From Blastococcus sp. Marseille-P5729 (lineage in GTDB: Bacteria; Actinomycetota; Actinomycetes; Mycobacteriales; Antricoccaceae): a stretch of 64,000 nt of DNA. A model generated the notes under the pieces. That model saw only the letters and a list, made by a program, of their open reading frames with translations. It made no database searches and had not been told where the DNA came from. Both the position numbers and the translations under genes were made by a program. Numbering within the stretch: position 1 is the first letter of the stretch; each line of letters starts with the position of its first letter. Where the stretch lies: positions 372,001 to 436,000 of the forward strand of contig NZ_OMPO01000002.1 in NCBI RefSeq assembly GCF_900292035.1, given 5' to 3'. This document shows positions 10,134 to 19,286 of this stretch, one piece after another.

Positions 10134-10366
10134 AGGCCGAAGCTTCTTTCGTGGAGCAAGGGCAAGGGGCAACTCCGGCCAGACTGTGCCCGGCCAGATA
10201 CCACTTCTTCACGCAAACACGTATCTTACGTAGATGAGGACTCCTTAGCGAGTCATTGAACATCGAACTAGGTCACAGAACAACTACGACGACCGTGTAT
10301 CGCTCCGGCGTCCGACCTGGAATACTCTTCACATTGTCTTGACCTCGAATGCCCGAAGGCGGTCTG

Positions 10367-12142
10367 GTGGAACTTCGCGACTATCTGCGGATCATTCGGC
10401 AGCAGTGGCTTCTGATCGTCTCCTGCGTCCTCATCGCGATCGCGGCGGCGGCCCTGGTGACCTTGCGGGCCACCCCGCAGTACCAGTCCACGGCCTCGCT
10501 CTTTGTCTCGACGCCCCAGTCTGATGGCGGTTCGGCGTCGTACCAAGGCGGGCTCTTCTCGCAGCAGCGCGTGTCGTCGTACGCGGACCTCATCAAGGGC
10601 AAGCAGATCGCCCAGCGAGTCGTGGACAAGCTTGACCTCGATGAGTCGGCGTCCTCCCTCGCGAGTCGGGTGAGCGCCACCGTCGTCCCCGAGACTGTGA
10701 TCCTCAACGTCACCGTGCAGGACTCCGATCCGCAGCAGGCGCAGAAGCTCGCCGAGGCAATCGCGCAGGAGTTCACCGTCTTCGTCAGCGAGCTCGAGAC
10801 GACGCCGGGTGCGGAGAACGCCCCGATCAAGGCGACCATCGTCGACCCGCCCACCGTGCCCACCACCGCGGTCAGCCCTCAGCCGCTGCGCAACTTCGGA
10901 CTCGCCGCGATCCTCGGCCTTCTCGTCGGCATCGGCCTCGCCATACTACGAGAGATGCTCGACAACACGGTCAAGAACACCGACGCGCTCCGCGAGGCGT
11001 CCGGCGCGGCCAACCTGGGCAGCGTCTTCTACGACCCCAAGGCCGCGACGCGGCCACTGGTCACCCAGCTCGACTCGCACGCGCCGCGTGCCGAGGCCTT
11101 CCGCGTGCTGCGGACCAACCTGCAGTTCATCGACGTCGACAGCGCCAGCAAGGTCTTCATCATGACCTCGCCGCTGCCCGGCGACGGCAAGTCGACCACC
11201 GCGGTGAACCTCGCCATCACCCTCGCCCAGGCCGGTCAGCGCACGGTGCTCATCGAGGGTGATCTGCGACGTCCCAAGACCTCCGAGTACCTGGGTCTCG
11301 AGAGCAAGGTCGGTCTGACGACCGTCCTCATCGGAAAGGTTGACCTCGACGACGCGATCCAGCCCTGGGGTGAGGACGGACTGCACGTCATCTCCTCCGG
11401 CGCGATCCCGCCCAACCCCGCTGAGCTCCTGCAGTCGCGGCAGATGGGGACCGTCCTCGAGCGGCTGCGCCGTCACTACGACGTCGTCCTCATCGACGCT
11501 CCCCCGCTGCTGCCGGTCGCCGATGCCGCGGTTCTCTCGCGCCAGGCCGACGGCGCGATTCTCGTCGTCCGCCACGGCAAGACCACCCGTGACCAGGTCT
11601 CCGCTGCCGTCGAACGGCTGCATTCCGTCGACGCCGAGCTGCTCGGCACCGTTTTCAACCGCACCCCCAGCAAGGGACGCGGCGGCTACGGGTACGGGTA
11701 CGGGTACGGATACGGATACGGGTATGCACCCAGCGACGACGCCGAGGTCATCGACGACGCCGCGTTCACCCGCTCAAAGCGTCGCGCCAGTTCTGCCGAC
11801 GAGGAGAAGCCGCGCGCAGCCGAGCCGGCGCCGGAGATGCTTGAGCCTGCGCACGACGCCGTCGTGGGGCATCCTCGGATGCCCAACCGCGAGGATCTCG
11901 CGCTGGAGGACGAGTACCCCACCGACGAGCAGCCCGCCGTCGACGTCCCTCCCGTCGAGCAGCCGGCCCACGCCGGTCGCTCCACCCAGTTCGAGCGGGC
12001 TATCGCCCGCTCGGGGCTGTCCGACACCCGCCCAGAGCGGGCCGAGGCCTCCGCCTCCGCCCGGTCGGGCGCGAACTCTCAGCCTCCGGCGCGCAGGCGC
12101 CGTTCGGTCGGCGACTTCCTGGCGAAGGAGTCCGGCGAGTAG
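10367..12142 (+). CDS. Wzz-BY-kinase: polysaccharide co-polymerase fused to tyrosine kinase
   Basis: About 591 residues. Residues 1-210 are a Wzz/chain-length domain between two membrane helices (ELRDYLRIIRQQW near the start; a second helix about 180-200). The kinase has Walker A SPLPGDGKSTTAVNLA, Walker A' VLIEGDLRRPK and Walker B VVLIDAPPLLPVAD. After the kinase comes a tract of seven to eight Tyr-Gly units (DNA 11684-11727), the probable autophosphorylation cluster, and then an unusual acidic, Pro-rich extension of about 130 residues ending in a basic tail. GTG 10367 has GAAGG seven bases upstream and gives the family-typical N-terminus; ATG 10349 would add six residues. It controls export and chain length together with the phosphatase encoded convergently. 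Confidence 0.92.
   Translation: MELRDYLRIIRQQWLLIVSCVLIAIAAAALVTLRATPQYQSTASLFVSTPQSDGGSASYQGGLFSQQRVSSYADLIKGKQIAQRVVDKLDLDESASSLASRVSATVVPETVILNVTVQDSDPQQAQKLAEAIAQEFTVFVSELETTPGAENAPIKATIVDPPTVPTTAVSPQPLRNFGLAAILGLLVGIGLAILREMLDNTVKNTDALREASGAANLGSVFYDPKAATRPLVTQLDSHAPRAEAFRVLRTNLQFIDVDSASKVFIMTSPLPGDGKSTTAVNLAITLAQAGQRTVLIEGDLRRPKTSEYLGLESKVGLTTVLIGKVDLDDAIQPWGEDGLHVISSGAIPPNPAELLQSRQMGTVLERLRRHYDVVLIDAPPLLPVADAAVLSRQADGAILVVRHGKTTRDQVSAAVERLHSVDAELLGTVFNRTPSKGRGGYGYGYGYGYGYGYAPSDDAEVIDDAAFTRSKRRASSADEEKPRAAEPAPEMLEPAHDAVVGHPRMPNREDLALEDEYPTDEQPAVDVPPVEQPAHAGRSTQFERAIARSGLSDTRPERAEASASARSGANSQPPARRRRSVGDFLAKESGE
11684..11727 (+). repeat. In-frame hexanucleotide repeat coding (Tyr-Gly)n
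   Basis: Tandem TACGGG/TACGGA hexamers inside the BY-kinase gene encode alternating Tyr and Gly. Because the unit is six bases, gain or loss of units keeps the frame and only changes the number of tyrosines, so the tract could vary between strains without inactivating the protein. Confidence 0.85.
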
Positions 12143-12152
12143 CTGCCGGCTC

Positions 12153-12312
12153 GCGGCGTCTCGGCGTCGCTCGTGCCTCGCTCGCTCGACGACCGTTAAT
12201 GGCCTGGTTGCGGACGTTGTTGGCCTGCGGCGTCTCGGCGTCGCTCGTGCCTCGCTCGCTCGACGACCGTGGGGTTTCGCCCGACGACCGTGGGGTTCTC
12301 GTTCGACGGGCG
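12153..12312. repeat. Family A interspersed repeat, two copies, plus GACCGTGGGGTT units
   Basis: Two identical 44-base copies (12153-12196 and 12227-12270) share the core GCGTCTCGGCGTCGCTCG and end CTCGACGACCGT. They are followed by short tandem units containing CGACGACCGTGGGGTT (from 12261 and again from 12282) and a diverged third unit up to about 12312. The spacer separates the convergent kinase and phosphatase genes. A third, diverged copy lies at 15271-15316 between another convergent gene pair. No protein signal is seen here. Confidence 0.8.
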
Positions 12313-12317
12313 TGGGG

Positions 12318-12872
12318 TTAGGGGTAGGTGCAGCGGGAGAGGGCGTCGGCAAGGACCTTCATGCATTCGTGGATCTCGGCCATCGCGACCTGGTGCTGCT
12401 CGGTGGTGCCGCCGTAGGGGTCGACCACGTCGAAGTCGGTAATCTCGGCGCCGCCGCGGTGCCTGTAGGCTGCAGCCACCAGTTCCCTGGCCGACTCGTA
12501 CTCCTTCGAGTCGAGCGAGACCAGGTGCGCGAACTCCTTCATCGTGAACGTGCGCCGCAGCCCGCGCGGGAACCGCTCCACCAGCTCGCTGCGGTGCTCC
12601 TTGGTCGCCGTCAGGATCAGGCTCCCGTCACTGACGATGCGGTCGTTCAATGGCCGCGACGAGAAATCCTCGGACAGCCCACCGAGACCCTCTAGGGCTG
12701 CGGCCGCGTCGGGGTCCATCGGGGAGGCATCCCAGCCGCGGACACCGGCAGACCGGATCCTGATGCGCAGCGCGTCGGACAGGTCGCGCTGGGAGAGCTC
12801 AAGCGCCAGCAGACGCTCCGCGCCGGGTGACCGGCAGATGTTCGCGGTGCAGACCATCAGCACGTCGAACAC
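12318..12872 (-). CDS. Low-molecular-weight protein tyrosine phosphatase (Wzb-like)
   Basis: About 184 residues. The catalytic P-loop VCTANICRSPGAERLL near the N-terminus gives C-x5-R-S, and VVDPYGGTTEQHQVAM near the C-terminus supplies the general-acid Asp in the D-P motif of this family. It removes phosphate from the tyrosine cluster of the BY-kinase, resetting polymer export. The gene is convergent with the kinase gene, only about 175 bases away. I prefer GTG 12872 (AGGA seven bases upstream, family-like length); in-frame GTG codons upstream, to 12917, would add up to 15 residues without similarity to the family. Confidence 0.9.
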   Translation of the reverse strand: MFDVLMVCTANICRSPGAERLLALELSQRDLSDALRIRIRSAGVRGWDASPMDPDAAAALEGLGGLSEDFSSRPLNDRIVSDGSLILTATKEHRSELVERFPRGLRRTFTMKEFAHLVSLDSKEYESARELVAAAYRHRGGAEITDFDVVDPYGGTTEQHQVAMAEIHECMKVLADALSRCTYP

Positions 12873-13036
12873 GTCGCTGTCCTGACGCACCGGATCCACC
12901 ACCGGCCCTAACTCCACGTCACACCGCCGTCCCTAACCCCACTTCACCTCATCGCACTGATCCCTGAGGATCAGGCACATCCTGTACCAGTTCCCACGAT
13001 ATGACCGCCCGCTCGCCCGGCGTTGCGCCGCCCGCC

Positions 13037-14113: not shown

Positions 14114-15220
14114 ATGGCACGAGGCCAGTACGACGACGAAGCCGACAACCTGCGGCTCGACGAGATCGGCGGCACCGACGAATCGGCGGACGATCGCGCG
14201 TCGGACGGCAAGCGCAAGGGCTTCTTCGCTCGGCACAAGGTGCTGACCACGTTCCTGGTGCTGATCGGACTGCTTGTCGGCTCGGTGGTCGGATTCGCCT
14301 TCTACCTGAACTCCAAGCTCTCGGACGTCGACACCTACGTCAGCAAGCTTGACGACAAGGACCGGGTGCCCAAGGCGTCGGCTCCCCCGGGCCAGAGCGG
14401 CCCGCCGCCGGTGAACATCCTGCTGCTCGGCGCCGACGCCACCAGCGGGAAGTCCATCGCGGAGCTGGTCGCCGCCGACACCTGGGACGCAGGCTCGATG
14501 CGCTCCGACACGATCATGATGGTGCACATCCCCTCGGATCGATCACGGGTCTACCTGATGTCCTTTCCCCGCGACTCCTGGGTGAACATCCCCGGCCGCA
14601 GCGGCAACGACAAGATCAACGCGGCCTTCTCATATGGCGGCCCCGACCTCGCCCTGCAGACCGTCGAGCAGTACTCGCAGGTGCACATCGACCACGTGAT
14701 GATGATCGACTGGGAGGGCTTCAAGGATCTCACCGACGCCCTCGGTGGGGTCTCGCTGCACGAGCCCGGCCAGGGCCAGGTGAAAATGAACGGCGAGCAG
14801 GCCCTGGAGTACGTACGAACCCGAAAGTCCTTGCCCAACGGCGACTTTGACCGGATCAAGCGGCAGCAGAACTTCCTGCGCCAGCTCATGGCGCAGACCG
14901 TCGACAGCCTCTCGATCACCGACCCGCTGATGCTCGCCGACGTCCTGAACGCCATCACCAGCAACACCACCGTGGACGCCAGCTTCACCCCCTCGGTGAT
15001 GCGCGACCTCGCGTGGGAGCTGCGCGGCATCAAGACCGGCAACGTCACCTTCTTCACCGTGCCCACCAACGGCACCGGCATGGAGGGTGACCAGTCCGTC
15101 GTCTACCTCGACGACGCCGCGAACAAGGAGCTGTTCAAGGCCGTCAACGAAGGCCTGCTCCCCCAGTACCTGAACAGCAACCCGCCGGACTCACTACCGG
15201 ACCCCACCAACGTGAACTAG
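14114..15220 (+). CDS. LytR-CpsA-Psr (LCP) family glycopolymer transferase
   Basis: 368 residues: an acidic cytoplasmic tail (1-35), one membrane helix (about 43-66) and an extracytoplasmic LCP domain. Family signatures include NILLLGAD, the Asp/Arg-containing SMRSDTIMMVHI, SFPRDSWVNIPG, KINAAFSYGGP and the C-terminal EYVRTRKSLPNGDFDRIKRQ. LCP enzymes move undecaprenyl-linked glycopolymers onto peptidoglycan (or arabinogalactan in mycolata), so this may attach the polymer made by the preceding cluster. The ATG lies 11 bases after GACGAGG. It is a complete copy at normal length. Confidence 0.93.
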   Translation: MARGQYDDEADNLRLDEIGGTDESADDRASDGKRKGFFARHKVLTTFLVLIGLLVGSVVGFAFYLNSKLSDVDTYVSKLDDKDRVPKASAPPGQSGPPPVNILLLGADATSGKSIAELVAADTWDAGSMRSDTIMMVHIPSDRSRVYLMSFPRDSWVNIPGRSGNDKINAAFSYGGPDLALQTVEQYSQVHIDHVMMIDWEGFKDLTDALGGVSLHEPGQGQVKMNGEQALEYVRTRKSLPNGDFDRIKRQQNFLRQLMAQTVDSLSITDPLMLADVLNAITSNTTVDASFTPSVMRDLAWELRGIKTGNVTFFTVPTNGTGMEGDQSVVYLDDAANKELFKAVNEGLLPQYLNSNPPDSLPDPTNVN

Positions 15221-15270
15221 GGCAGCTGCCGGCCGGATCTTCCCCCGACGGTGGTCCTCACTTCGGCTTA

Positions 15271-15345
15271 CGGCGTCTCGGCGTCGGTCGCTGGCGCTCC
15301 CTCGCTCGACGACCGTAGGAGGGGGCGACGACCGTAGGAGGGGGC
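15271..15345. repeat. Family A repeat, third copy
   Basis: CGGCGTCTCGGCGTCGGTCG to CTCGCTCGACGACCGT (15271-15316) matches the two copies near 12.2 kb with changes in the middle, then GGCGACGACCGTAGGAGGGG repeats its end. It again lies between convergent genes (the LCP gene and the monooxygenase-hydrolase). A role as transcription end or as a simple interspersed repeat is inference. Confidence 0.7.
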
Positions 15346-15372
15346 GCGAGGACCCGAGAGAACTCGGCGACC

Positions 15373-17517
15373 TCAGAGGTCGGCGGCCCAATCGCTGATC
15401 CGACTCAGCGCCTCGTCGGCCTCCGGCAGGAACTCGAACAACGGGAACACGTGCACCGAATCGTCGATGAAGTAGCGGGTGACCTCGACGCCGGCCTGCT
15501 CGGCGCGTTCGGCCAGCCGGGTCGCGTCGTCGTAAAGCACCTCGCCGTCGGTCGCGGCAATGAACAGCGGCGGTAGGCCGGTCAGGTCGCCGTAAACCGG
15601 CGAGACGAGCGGGTCGGTGGGCTCGTGGGTCTGGATGTACATGGCGGCCATCGCGGTCAGGCTGTCGCGGTTGGACGCCGGATCCTGGCCGTCGTATGTC
15701 GTGACGCTGGGTGAGGACAACGTGAGGTCTGCGAACGGGCAAATCGAGATAATGCCAGCGGGCAGCTCATCCCCAGCGCCCCGCAATGCCAGCGCGGTCG
15801 CCACCGCCAAACCGCCGCCAGAAGACTCGCCGGACAACAAGACGCGCGAGGCCGCGACCCCGTCGGCGACCAAGGCCCGATAGGCGCTCACCGCGTCATC
15901 CAATGCCGCGGGGTAGGCGTCCTCCGGAGCCCGCCGGTAGTCGATCACCATGCACGTGCCGCGCACCGCGGCGGCCAGCCGTGCGGCGTACTCCACGGAC
16001 GAAGTCGCGGATCCGATGACGTAACCGCCGCCGTGCAGATGAAGGATGACCGGGCCGTTAGCATCACCGTCCGGAGGGGTCACCTTAAGTCCACGCACGC
16101 GGCCAAGATCGACTCGCTCGACCTGCACGTCGTCCGGCACCGGGAAGCTTGTCTGCAGGAACCGGTCGTAGCCTTCGCGCATGCCGTCGTGACCGCGTGC
16201 CAGGTCCTCCTGCGTGAGCGCCGACCGCCACATGTCGTGCGCGCGTTGGCTCTCGGGACGCTTCTTCTTCGTACCCTCCCGCGCACCGGACAGCCCCACG
16301 ACGTGATCGGCAGGCTCGAGCACTGTCTTGGTGATGTCGTAGTTCATGGCGAAGGCCCAGGTCGTCTTGGCCATCGGATCGATTCGGATCATGCCTTGGA
16401 ACCGGCCGTTGCGGACCCGCACCCGGTCTGGGTCCGCCTCGTGCACCATCTTCACCATCGCTCGCGAACCAGCCTGCACGCGAGCCGTGCGCGGGCGACG
16501 ACGCGCCTCGTAGTCCATAAGCGCCGCTTCGATGGTCGCGTGCTGCGGGTCAGTGAGGCAGTGAGCGAGAGCCCATGCGTCCTCCATCGCCTGGCACGCG
16601 CCCTGGGCCAGGAAGGGCACCATCGCGTGCGCCGCGTCGCCCATCAGACTGATCCGGCCCTGCGTCCACCAGTCCAGCGGGTCGCGGTAGTACATGCCGG
16701 TGATGAAGCCGGTGTCGATGGCTTCGAGCATTGCCCGGGCGCGGGGCTCCGCGTCCTGGAAGGAGGCCATCATCTCGTCGAGATTGCCGGTCTCGGTCCA
16801 GTTCTCGCGGCTGATCTCAGTGGCGGGCACCGAGGCCAGCACGCTGTACAGAACCCCGGGGCGCACCCAGTAGGTGATCAGCGTGCGCCCAGGGCCGAAC
16901 CAGTAGTTGCCCTTCTCCGGCAGGTCCAGGTCGGCGATGCGGTCAGCGGGAATGAGCCCACGCCACATCAGGATGTCGGCAAAGTGCCTCGGTTCCTCCC
17001 CACGCAGATTTGTGCGGACGACGGAGTGGATGCCGTCGGCACCGATGACCGCATCGCCACGGACCCGCTCGCCGCTGTCGAGCTCCGCCCACGCGCCGTC
17101 GTCATCCTGGCCCACCGAGACCACCTTCGCACCGGTTCGAATGACCTCGGCTGGGACGGCGCCGGCGAGCAGCTTGATGAGGTCGGCTCGGTGGATGTTG
17201 TACAACGGGGCGCCGTACAGCTCGTCGGCAGCAGCGCCGAAGGGGAACTCGATCAGCTGCTGGCCTGTGCGCAGATCGCGTGCGTCAAAGGACTCGGGCT
17301 TGACCGCTTGAGCAGCGAGCGACTCCTCCAGATTGAGCTGGCGCAGCACATGGACGCCGTTCGCCGCGATCTGGATGCCCGCGCCGGTCTCGGTCACGTC
17401 GTCGGTGCGCTCGAGGAGGGTGACCTGCGCGCCCTTCTTCAACAGCGATGCGGCGGCGGTCAACCCGCCAATGCCGCCGCCGACGATGACGACATGCGGT
17501 GAGCGGTTTTCGGGCAC
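15373..17517 (-). CDS. Fusion of FAD-dependent monooxygenase and HSL-type alpha/beta hydrolase
   Basis: 714 residues in one uninterrupted frame. Residues 1-400 are a class A flavoprotein hydroxylase: the FAD dinucleotide motif HVVIVGGGIGGLTAAASLL (8-26), the DG motif (GADGIHSVVR, 159-168) and GDAAHAMVPF (293-302) for FAD ribityl binding. Residues 460-714 are a hormone-sensitive-lipase-like hydrolase: oxyanion HGGG at 495-498, nucleophile GESSG (Ser565), and probable Asp and His in AATDGEVLYDD and DDSVHVF. The substrate is probably an aromatic or ester compound that is hydroxylated and then hydrolysed; this is inference. Divergent TetR gene and shared operator suggest substrate-inducible control. 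The linker (about 400-460) is charged. Confidence 0.88.
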   Translation of the reverse strand: MPENRSPHVVIVGGGIGGLTAAASLLKKGAQVTLLERTDDVTETGAGIQIAANGVHVLRQLNLEESLAAQAVKPESFDARDLRTGQQLIEFPFGAAADELYGAPLYNIHRADLIKLLAGAVPAEVIRTGAKVVSVGQDDDGAWAELDSGERVRGDAVIGADGIHSVVRTNLRGEEPRHFADILMWRGLIPADRIADLDLPEKGNYWFGPGRTLITYWVRPGVLYSVLASVPATEISRENWTETGNLDEMMASFQDAEPRARAMLEAIDTGFITGMYYRDPLDWWTQGRISLMGDAAHAMVPFLAQGACQAMEDAWALAHCLTDPQHATIEAALMDYEARRRPRTARVQAGSRAMVKMVHEADPDRVRVRNGRFQGMIRIDPMAKTTWAFAMNYDITKTVLEPADHVVGLSGAREGTKKKRPESQRAHDMWRSALTQEDLARGHDGMREGYDRFLQTSFPVPDDVQVERVDLGRVRGLKVTPPDGDANGPVILHLHGGGYVIGSATSSVEYAARLAAAVRGTCMVIDYRRAPEDAYPAALDDAVSAYRALVADGVAASRVLLSGESSGGGLAVATALALRGAGDELPAGIISICPFADLTLSSPSVTTYDGQDPASNRDSLTAMAAMYIQTHEPTDPLVSPVYGDLTGLPPLFIAATDGEVLYDDATRLAERAEQAGVEVTRYFIDDSVHVFPLFEFLPEADEALSRISDWAADL

Positions 17518-17534
17518 GGGTTCTCCTGGGTAAC

Positions 17535-17586
17535 GAGTTAAGCGCTTCGACTTAATATGCGATACTTAAGTCGAAGTACTTAACTC
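17535..17586. promoter_or_regulatory. Large inverted-repeat operator between monooxygenase-hydrolase and TetR genes
   Basis: Left arm 17535-17555 and right arm 17566-17586 are reverse complements over 21 bases with two mismatches, separated by ten bases. Each arm contains TTAAG and CTTCGACTTAA (or its complement). Position between divergent start codons makes it the likely binding site of the adjacent TetR protein, probably as two dimers. Confidence 0.85.
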
Positions 17587-17602
17587 TGTCAAGGGAGGCG
17601 TC

Positions 17603-18304
17603 GTGTCCCCTCGCGTTACCGCACGGGCGCCGCGCTCGGACAGCGAGGCGACCAAAAACCGGATCAAAGTGGCCGCACAAAGACTATTTGCGGTGCGCGG
17701 AGTGGATGGCGTCTCCGTGCAGGAGATCGTCACGGCCGCCGGTCAGCGGAACAACGGTTCGGTGCACTACCACTTCGGCGGCAAGGACGCGCTGGTGCGA
17801 GAGCTCGTGGCGGACGGCGCCCGAACGATCAACCAAACCCGCCTTCGGATGCTCGCCGATCTCGAGACCGGCACGGAGCCTTTCGGTCTGCGCGACGTGG
17901 TCGAAGCCCTGGTCAAGCCGGTGCTGGAGATTCGGCGCCCGGATGGCACACTCGATCTGACCTACCTGCGGTTCGTCACTAACGTTCAACTCAACCATCG
18001 TCCACTGCTCCGGGAAGCGCTCGACAGCAAGCTGAACACTGGCTACCGGCGGTGCCTCGATCTCATCCGCTCGCGAGCCGACGACTGGCTACCCCAGGTG
18101 CCGGCGCCGCTGCTCGACCAGCGGATCTCCTTTACCGGGATCTACGCGAATGCAATCCTCTCCGCGCGGGAGGCGCATCTCGCGGGTGACGATTCCGGGC
18201 GGCTGTGGACGCCGGCAAACTCCGTCGTCAACGTCATCGATTCGTTGGTCGCGGTCCTGGAGTCCGAGCCGTCGAGCGGCGCTATCCAACTGCTGTCCGA
18301 CTAA
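17603..18304 (+). CDS. TetR/AcrR family transcriptional regulator
   Basis: 233 residues. The N-terminal helix-turn-helix is clear: KNRIKVAAQRLFAVRGVDGV then VQEIVTAAGQRNNGSVHYHF, ending HFGGKDAL, the standard TetR recognition helix and capping segment. The C-terminal ligand domain is specific to this subgroup. GTG 17603 follows GGGAGG at a good distance. It is encoded back-to-back with the monooxygenase-hydrolase, sharing the 17535-17586 inverted repeat, so it most likely represses both genes until its ligand (perhaps the enzyme substrate) is present. Confidence 0.92.
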   Translation: MSPRVTARAPRSDSEATKNRIKVAAQRLFAVRGVDGVSVQEIVTAAGQRNNGSVHYHFGGKDALVRELVADGARTINQTRLRMLADLETGTEPFGLRDVVEALVKPVLEIRRPDGTLDLTYLRFVTNVQLNHRPLLREALDSKLNTGYRRCLDLIRSRADDWLPQVPAPLLDQRISFTGIYANAILSAREAHLAGDDSGRLWTPANSVVNVIDSLVAVLESEPSSGAIQLLSD

Positions 18305-18356: not shown

Positions 18357-19286
18357 CTAGCGCGACATCCGCGCTTGGTGCCAGGCGAGGGTCTCCTTCA
18401 GTCCGTCTCTCAGCGGGATCTCGGGCAGGGCCGGGAACAGTCGGCGGAGCAATGCGTCGCCCGCGAGCGAGTGCCGAATCTCGCCCTCACGGGGCTCCTG
18501 ATGGGTCACTTGAATCGATTGCCCAGCTATTTCTTCTAGTAGACCCACTAGTTCTAGAAGTGACGTCTGCGTTCCGAGTGCCAAGTTCACCGGCCGATCG
18601 ATGTCGGCCCGACGCTCTACTGCGTCGAGGAGGATGCGGCAGACTGCGCGCACGTGCACAAAGTCTCGTGTCTGAAGCCCGTCGCCATAAATCGTCAGGG
18701 GTCGACCATGCACCAGCGCATCCAGAAAGGCCGGGATCACGGCGGCGTACACGTGATCCGCTGGTTGCCCGGGGCCATAGACGTTGAAGAACCGGAACGC
18801 CGCGGTGGGCAATCCGTAGCTCTCCGAATAGGCCCTCGCATACTGTTCGGTCGCCACTTTCGACACAGCGTATGGACTCAGGGGCGCCAGCCAGGACGAC
18901 TCGTTGAGTGGCAGCGAGGAATTCGACCCGTACACCGCGCTCGACGACGCGACGGTCACCTGTGACACTCCGAGATGCCGAGCCGCGTCCAACACCTCCA
19001 GGGTGCCGCGCACATTGACCTCGTTCGTCGCGAGCGGGTCTTCGATACTCAGCGGCACGCTCGCGATCGCCGCAAGGTGCACGACCGCGTCCGCGTCCGC
19101 CAGTGCTTCGTCGAGCGCCGGGCGATCGAGGATCGACGCGTGCAGGAAGCGATGCTCCACCTGTAGATTCTCCCGATCACCGGTCGACAAATCGTCAATG
19201 ATCGTGATCTCGTGACCTCGGGCGACCGCGAGCGTCGCGAGGTTGGAGCCGATGAAGCCCGCGCCGCCAGTGATAGTCAATCGCAT
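18357..19286 (-). CDS. NAD-dependent sugar epimerase/dehydratase (GalE-like SDR)
   Basis: 309 residues, extended short-chain dehydrogenase. The NAD motif ITGGAGFIGSNLATLA is at residues 4-19; the catalytic set is a Ser in SSSAVYG and Tyr/Lys in SPYAVSKVATEQYA. PVNLALGTQTSLLELV is typical of UDP-glucose 4-epimerase-like proteins. It probably interconverts or dehydrates a UDP-hexose for glycan synthesis; the exact sugar cannot be assigned. ATG 19286 has GGAGG seven bases upstream. It stands alone, convergent with the TetR gene. Confidence 0.87.
   Translation of the reverse strand: MRLTITGGAGFIGSNLATLAVARGHEITIIDDLSTGDRENLQVEHRFLHASILDRPALDEALADADAVVHLAAIASVPLSIEDPLATNEVNVRGTLEVLDAARHLGVSQVTVASSSAVYGSNSSLPLNESSWLAPLSPYAVSKVATEQYARAYSESYGLPTAAFRFFNVYGPGQPADHVYAAVIPAFLDALVHGRPLTIYGDGLQTRDFVHVRAVCRILLDAVERRADIDRPVNLALGTQTSLLELVGLLEEIAGQSIQVTHQEPREGEIRHSLAGDALLRRLFPALPEIPLRDGLKETLAWHQARMSR

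Follow-up and report, generated by a model that had tools for sequence, protein, structure and literature searches.

The window analysed here, a 64,000-nucleotide stretch of the Blastococcus sp. Marseille-P5729 genome, carries one open reading frame in which a class A flavin hydroxylase and a family IV esterase are joined in a single polypeptide. The fusion is real, conserved and uncommon. We propose, with a probability of roughly 0.55, that it is a bifunctional catabolic enzyme that arose by a single old fusion, hydrolyzes an aromatic ester, then hydroxylates the ring, and is controlled by a TetR-family regulator. The features on which this reading draws are as follows.

14114-15220: LCP-family gene, flanking the fusion/TetR pair
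15373..17517, minus strand: fused flavin hydroxylase-esterase, 714 aa, GTG start, one open frame
15376..16197, minus strand: family IV (HSL, GESSG variant) esterase domain, residues ~441-714, with S565, E659 and H689
16198..16317, minus strand: linker, residues ~401-440, conserved in core fusions, low pLDDT
16318..17517, minus strand: class A FAD monooxygenase domain, residues ~1-400, from Pfam, PDB match and structural alignment, with R186, T212, Y216 and D294
17535..17586, no strand assigned: operator candidate, an inverted repeat of overlapping 18-bp TTAAN10TTAA units at 17538, 17552 and 17566
17603..18304, plus strand: divergent TetR-family regulator, 233 aa (TetR_N, PF00440, E 2.9e-10)
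18357-19286: epimerase gene, flanking the fusion/TetR pair

Both domains are complete. Pfam places FAD_binding_3 at residues 9-347 (E 5.5e-28) and Abhydrolase_3 at residues 491-692 (E 5.5e-50) in the same frame, each scoring far above its cut-off. The three motifs that define class A flavoprotein monooxygenases (GxGxxG, DG and GD) lie within one FAD domain, as GGGIGG from residue 13, GADG from residue 159 and GDAAH with D294. The C-terminal part has the motif set expected of a family IV (HSL) esterase, namely HGGG from residue 495, the nucleophile in GES565SG, the acid E659 and H689. Thus the initial annotation, which described a complete class A hydroxylase and a complete HSL-type hydrolase (HGGG, GESSG) on one 714-residue chain, was correct. 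The sequence AGGAGA lies a few bases 5' of the GTG start; a promoter and terminator scan of 15150-17700 gave no match. The GC content of the fusion gene, 67.5%, matches that of the window (67.6%), so there is no sign of recent import; that of the TetR gene is 65.0%. An AlphaFold model built from 18 sequences has a mean pLDDT of 76 and a pTM of 0.63, with pLDDT below 50 at residues 368-385 and 405-427. The model is good enough for the predicted hydroxylase fold, and the linker is too low in pLDDT to bear on channelling.

Colinear fused homologues were found in six other lineages. Two genomes of the same family encode them in a single open frame at 73% and 70% identity, so that three of the five genomes of the window's family carry the fusion. 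One-frame homologues also occur in Aeromicrobium sp. Leaf350 (57% identical), in a betaproteobacterial MAG (55%) and, in a divergent form (38%), on Bradyrhizobium plasmids, where seven records are near-identical at the protein level. The plasmid PPGU19_p3 of Paraburkholderia has a copy with the same domain order and 57% identity that is frameshifted in the esterase part; the shift in this Paraburkholderia sp. PGU19 copy falls just past GESSG (L115:11540-11760), and the PLSDB table lists no gene there. We refer to the fusions of the window, its two same-family relatives, Aeromicrobium, the MAG and Paraburkholderia as the core group, with Bradyrhizobium outside it. Within the core group, the six fusions have 47-83% identity across the linker region (residues 386-450), and the Bradyrhizobium linker gave no blast match to it.

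These homologues dispose of the concern, raised with the initial annotation, that a lost stop codon or an assembly error had joined two adjacent genes that are always separate elsewhere. We found nothing in favor of such an artefact, and all that the Paraburkholderia frameshift shows is that a break in the frame can occur. Against it stand the same domain order in six other lineages, in a single open frame in five of them, and the conservation of the linker throughout the core group, which leave the artefact with practically no probability. The suggestion that the two activities usually reside in separate proteins also proved sound. Full-length fusion matches, at the thresholds used and counted apart from the genomes used as centers and the window's own family, numbered 0 of 396 genomes from the phylum, 0 of 295 from the Aeromicrobium family, 0 of 399 from the MAG's order and 0 of 397 from the order to which the window belongs; the two genes are normally separate. 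Another rare flavoenzyme fusion was seen in genome G059, from that order: an HpxO-like FAD monooxygenase with a condensation/PapA-type acyltransferase domain C-terminal to it, in one frame of 824 aa (L101:121-2592).

All seven fusions fall into a single clade both in the hydroxylase tree (63 domains, support 99/95) and in the esterase tree (36 domains, support 100/99), which included few standalone esterases. A single fusion event is the simplest history, supported by both domain trees, with later patchy spread across actinobacteria and proteobacteria; plasmids carry the fusion in two of the three lineages of the latter. Viral contigs contained no relative, and we rejected phage-borne spread. 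The placement of Bradyrhizobium is the least sure, since a long branch leads to it (1.27 and 1.16 changes per site in the two domain trees). An independent fusion in Bradyrhizobium is nonetheless not favored, in that both trees group it with the other fusions despite the long branch and the small sample of standalone esterases.

The closest match of the N-terminal part in a PDB search is tropone 2-monooxygenase TrlE (PDB 8rqh, 1.4e-66), followed in NCBIfam and PDB by decarboxylating vanillate and 4-hydroxybenzoate hydroxylases, NicC and 3HB6H. Structural alignment of the predicted model places residues 4-400 nearest the same folds, with Z 51.7 and an rmsd of 1.8 over 379 residues for TrlE, and Z 47.6 and an rmsd of 2.2 for 3HB6H. 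Active-site residues were located by alignment to NicC, TrlE and vanillate hydroxylase. R186 and Y216 of the fusion correspond to R185 and Y217 of TrlE, for which substrate-site roles have been described (PMC11110157, PMC6043778); Y216 is also the equivalent of Y217 in 3HB6H (PDB 4bk1) and of the substrate-binding Tyr215 in NicC (PDB 5eow). T212, by contrast, occupies the position of His213 in 3HB6H and TrlE and of His211 in NicC. At this His-x3-Tyr position the six core fusions have Thr, Ser or Asn, and Bradyrhizobium keeps both His and Tyr. TrlE retains His213 and has no esterase domain.

Two specific identities were rejected on these grounds. The fusion scores 262.7 bits against the 3HB6H model NF006021, which has a cut-off of 459, its His213-Tyr217 pair is not kept, and its genome has no match to the gentisate dioxygenase model TIGR02272; since the His of the pair is replaced and that dioxygenase match is missing from the genome, the fusion should not be called a 3-hydroxybenzoate 6-hydroxylase, and its substrate is probably not 3-hydroxybenzoate. 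(A search of relatives with NF006021 at 1e-130 gave no match, and the control was equally silent.) NicC shares the family but differs at His47 (Gln49 in the fusion) and at the His of KPHMAQG (Phe302), as well as in the His211-Tyr215 substrate pair, where His has become Thr212. Thr212 in place of His means that the pocket differs from those of both enzymes. Replacing the His does not abolish activity: minor product formation persists in TrlE variants H213E and H213Q, and the catalytic role of this residue has been called subsidiary (PMC11110157).

In the PDB search the C-terminal part matches family IV esterases best, with EstD11 at 1.8e-62. With EstD11 (PDB 7at0) and the GESAG subgroup (NF058651) it shares HGGG, GESxG and the Ser/acid/His positions; it differs from them in being the C-terminal domain of a flavoenzyme, in its GESSG motif and in its score against NF058651, 240 bits with a cut-off of 430. 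A two-gene version of the system lies on a plasmid of Comamonadaceae OTU4NAUVB1, where the same two domain families are adjacent on one strand but encoded separately, each domain being only ~31% identical to the fusion. On this leaf-associated plasmid a flavin oxidoreductase gene precedes the Abhydrolase_3 gene (L117:7965-10511), and a DUF3237 gene and a tannase/feruloyl-esterase-family gene are nearby.

In the reaction sequence that we favor, the C-terminal esterase would free a small aromatic acid or phenol from an ester, the N-terminal NAD(P)H- and FAD-dependent monooxygenase would hydroxylate the released ring, and the activated product would pass to later ring cleavage. The aromatic nature of the substrate is suggested by the hydroxylase's neighbors, which are aromatic-acid and tropone hydroxylases, and by R186 and Y216, which are kept from their substrate site. 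An electron-rich ring is a requirement of the class A hydroxylases in this branch, most of which also depend on an acid anchor, and the ester is therefore most likely cut first; this order is chemically more plausible than hydroxylation followed by hydrolysis, although the domain neighbors alone do not fix it. With ipso-hydroxylating enzymes and a tropone monooxygenase among the nearest relatives, the opposite order may be considered, in which an ipso, ring-expanding or Baeyer-Villiger-like step makes an ester or lactone that the esterase domain then opens. The ranking of TrlE and the decarboxylating hydroxylases as closest relatives favors such a scheme, as does the more distantly related 2-methyl-3-hydroxypyridine-5-carboxylate oxygenase, which oxygenates and opens its ring; BVMO pathways commonly couple an ester-forming oxygenase to an esterase, and the lost His213 suggests an unusual substrate. 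Most of the closest characterized family members, however, make phenols rather than esters, and the Bradyrhizobium fusion, with its His-Tyr pair and a gentisate-dioxygenase-like neighbor, fits plain hydroxylation. We consider oxygenation before hydrolysis unlikely.

The intergenic region between the fusion and TetR genes points to a dedicated switch. This gap of 85 bases has a GC content of 47% and holds four TTAA at a 14-bp period (17538, 17552, 17566 and 17580), forming the three overlapping 18-bp units. The inverted repeat 17535-17555/17566-17586, with 21-nt arms that are 90% complementary and a 10-nt gap, is the outer view of this array. With up to two mismatches the pattern TTAASTN6ASTTAA occurs three times in the window, always in the gap, against 0.18 expected. 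The strict pattern is found once in each of the corresponding gaps of the window, the MAG (TTAAGTATAATGACTTAA) and Paraburkholderia (TTAACTAAACTGAGTTAA); these are the same three gaps from which the pattern was derived, and its presence there is consequently not an independent test. The stronger points for a candidate operator are that the pattern is unique in the genome and that the four fusion loci lacking this TetR do not have it. Across the 3.33 Mb genome, with one mismatch allowed, the pattern occurs at two places only, both in the fusion-TetR gap, and the reversed control pattern gave zero.

Divergent TetR homologues flank the two betaproteobacterial fusions, at 43% identity in the MAG and 47% in Paraburkholderia, and no homologous TetR stands beside the other fusions. 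Genomes G002, G001 and Aeromicrobium yielded no TetR homologue; G003 and G004 have weak ones only. The TetR_N domain, together with a palindromic site common to the divergent gaps of homologous pairs, is consistent with membership of the TetR repressors. From this arrangement and the candidate operator we infer that TetR would repress both genes from tandem TTAASTN6ASTTAA sites and that the substrate, or a product of an early step, would release it. The divergent TetR gene and large inverted repeat noted earlier are both there, and as a unit they are kept in two other fusion loci, with a motif unique in the genome. Their interpretation as a compact inducible catabolic module stands in part: the catabolic role fits the neighborhoods of relatives and the compact unit is present in the window, the MAG and Paraburkholderia, but the other fusions have no adjacent TetR homologue.

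Neighboring genes of the relatives fit aromatic catabolism. The Bradyrhizobium fusion adjoins a cupin resembling gentisate 1,2-dioxygenase (7e-75, below cut-off) and two fumarylacetoacetate-hydrolase (FAH)-family genes, in a locus that also has SDRs and a regulator with a weak PcaR/PcaU family match. The MAG locus encodes a dienelactone hydrolase, a Glyoxalase/Dioxygenase-superfamily protein, an Amidohydro_2 protein and several solute-binding proteins. At the Aeromicrobium locus there are a Peripla_BP_6 binding protein accompanied by ABC uptake components, and both an aldehyde and an alcohol dehydrogenase. Because these neighborhoods differ, the fusions may not share a substrate. The exception to the catabolic pattern is G003, where the fusion is followed by genes for a type III polyketide synthase, an ICMT and a second FAD_binding_3 protein. 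One might conclude from it, and from the fact that TrlE is itself biosynthetic (PMC11110157), that the fusion serves biosynthesis or tailoring rather than catabolism. No such cluster occurs at the window, MAG, Aeromicrobium, Paraburkholderia or Bradyrhizobium loci, and we judge this role to be very improbable.

Beside the window copy itself, no ring-cleavage, transporter or other pathway genes were seen. This is one reason to ask whether the two domains do unrelated or loosely linked jobs, such as detoxifying xenobiotic esters and phenols, with fusion serving co-expression and equal dosage. Family IV esterases are promiscuous, and the predicted model, with its low-pLDDT linker, does not support channelling, which the initial annotation had implied together with one substrate shared by both domains and hydroxylation ahead of hydrolysis; neither of these two found support either. 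Such independence is hard to reconcile with a single fusion kept across phyla and with the recurrent catabolic neighborhoods and dedicated candidate operator, and we assign it a low probability, preferring a bifunctional catabolic enzyme.

Other features of the surrounding DNA were recorded. A short intergenic repeat containing CTCGCTCGACGACCG occurs at three places in the window (15296-15345, 12176-12195 and 12250-12269); a similar sequence lies 5' of the fusion in a sister species (L119), perhaps as a shared intergenic repeat element. By eye, a 597-aa frame at 10349-12142 with a GYGYGYGYGYG run near its C-terminus, and a short frame on the opposite strand at 12318-12917 resembling a low-molecular-weight tyrosine phosphatase, together give the impression of a polysaccharide tyrosine-kinase locus.

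Fusions between enzymes that act in successive steps have precedent, and both parts of this protein come from known families; their combination seems to be undescribed in the open-access papers searched, a limited check in which no paper described a fused monooxygenase-esterase. It is possible, though we would put it at less than even odds, that the fusions constitute a previously undescribed family, lacking the His in its core members, that catalyzes both the oxygenation and the ester hydrolysis of one compound and is exchanged between actinobacteria and proteobacteria, some members being accompanied by a TetR switch of their own. The fusion is a ready candidate for a bifunctional biocatalyst, and the TetR/candidate operator pair, its site being unique in the genome, could serve as a sensor when its ligand has been identified. 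The fusion may also help in naming family IV esterases and 3HB6H-like hydroxylases, many of which are unassigned, as the presence of oxygenase and esterase on one chain suggests that both reactions belong to one pathway.
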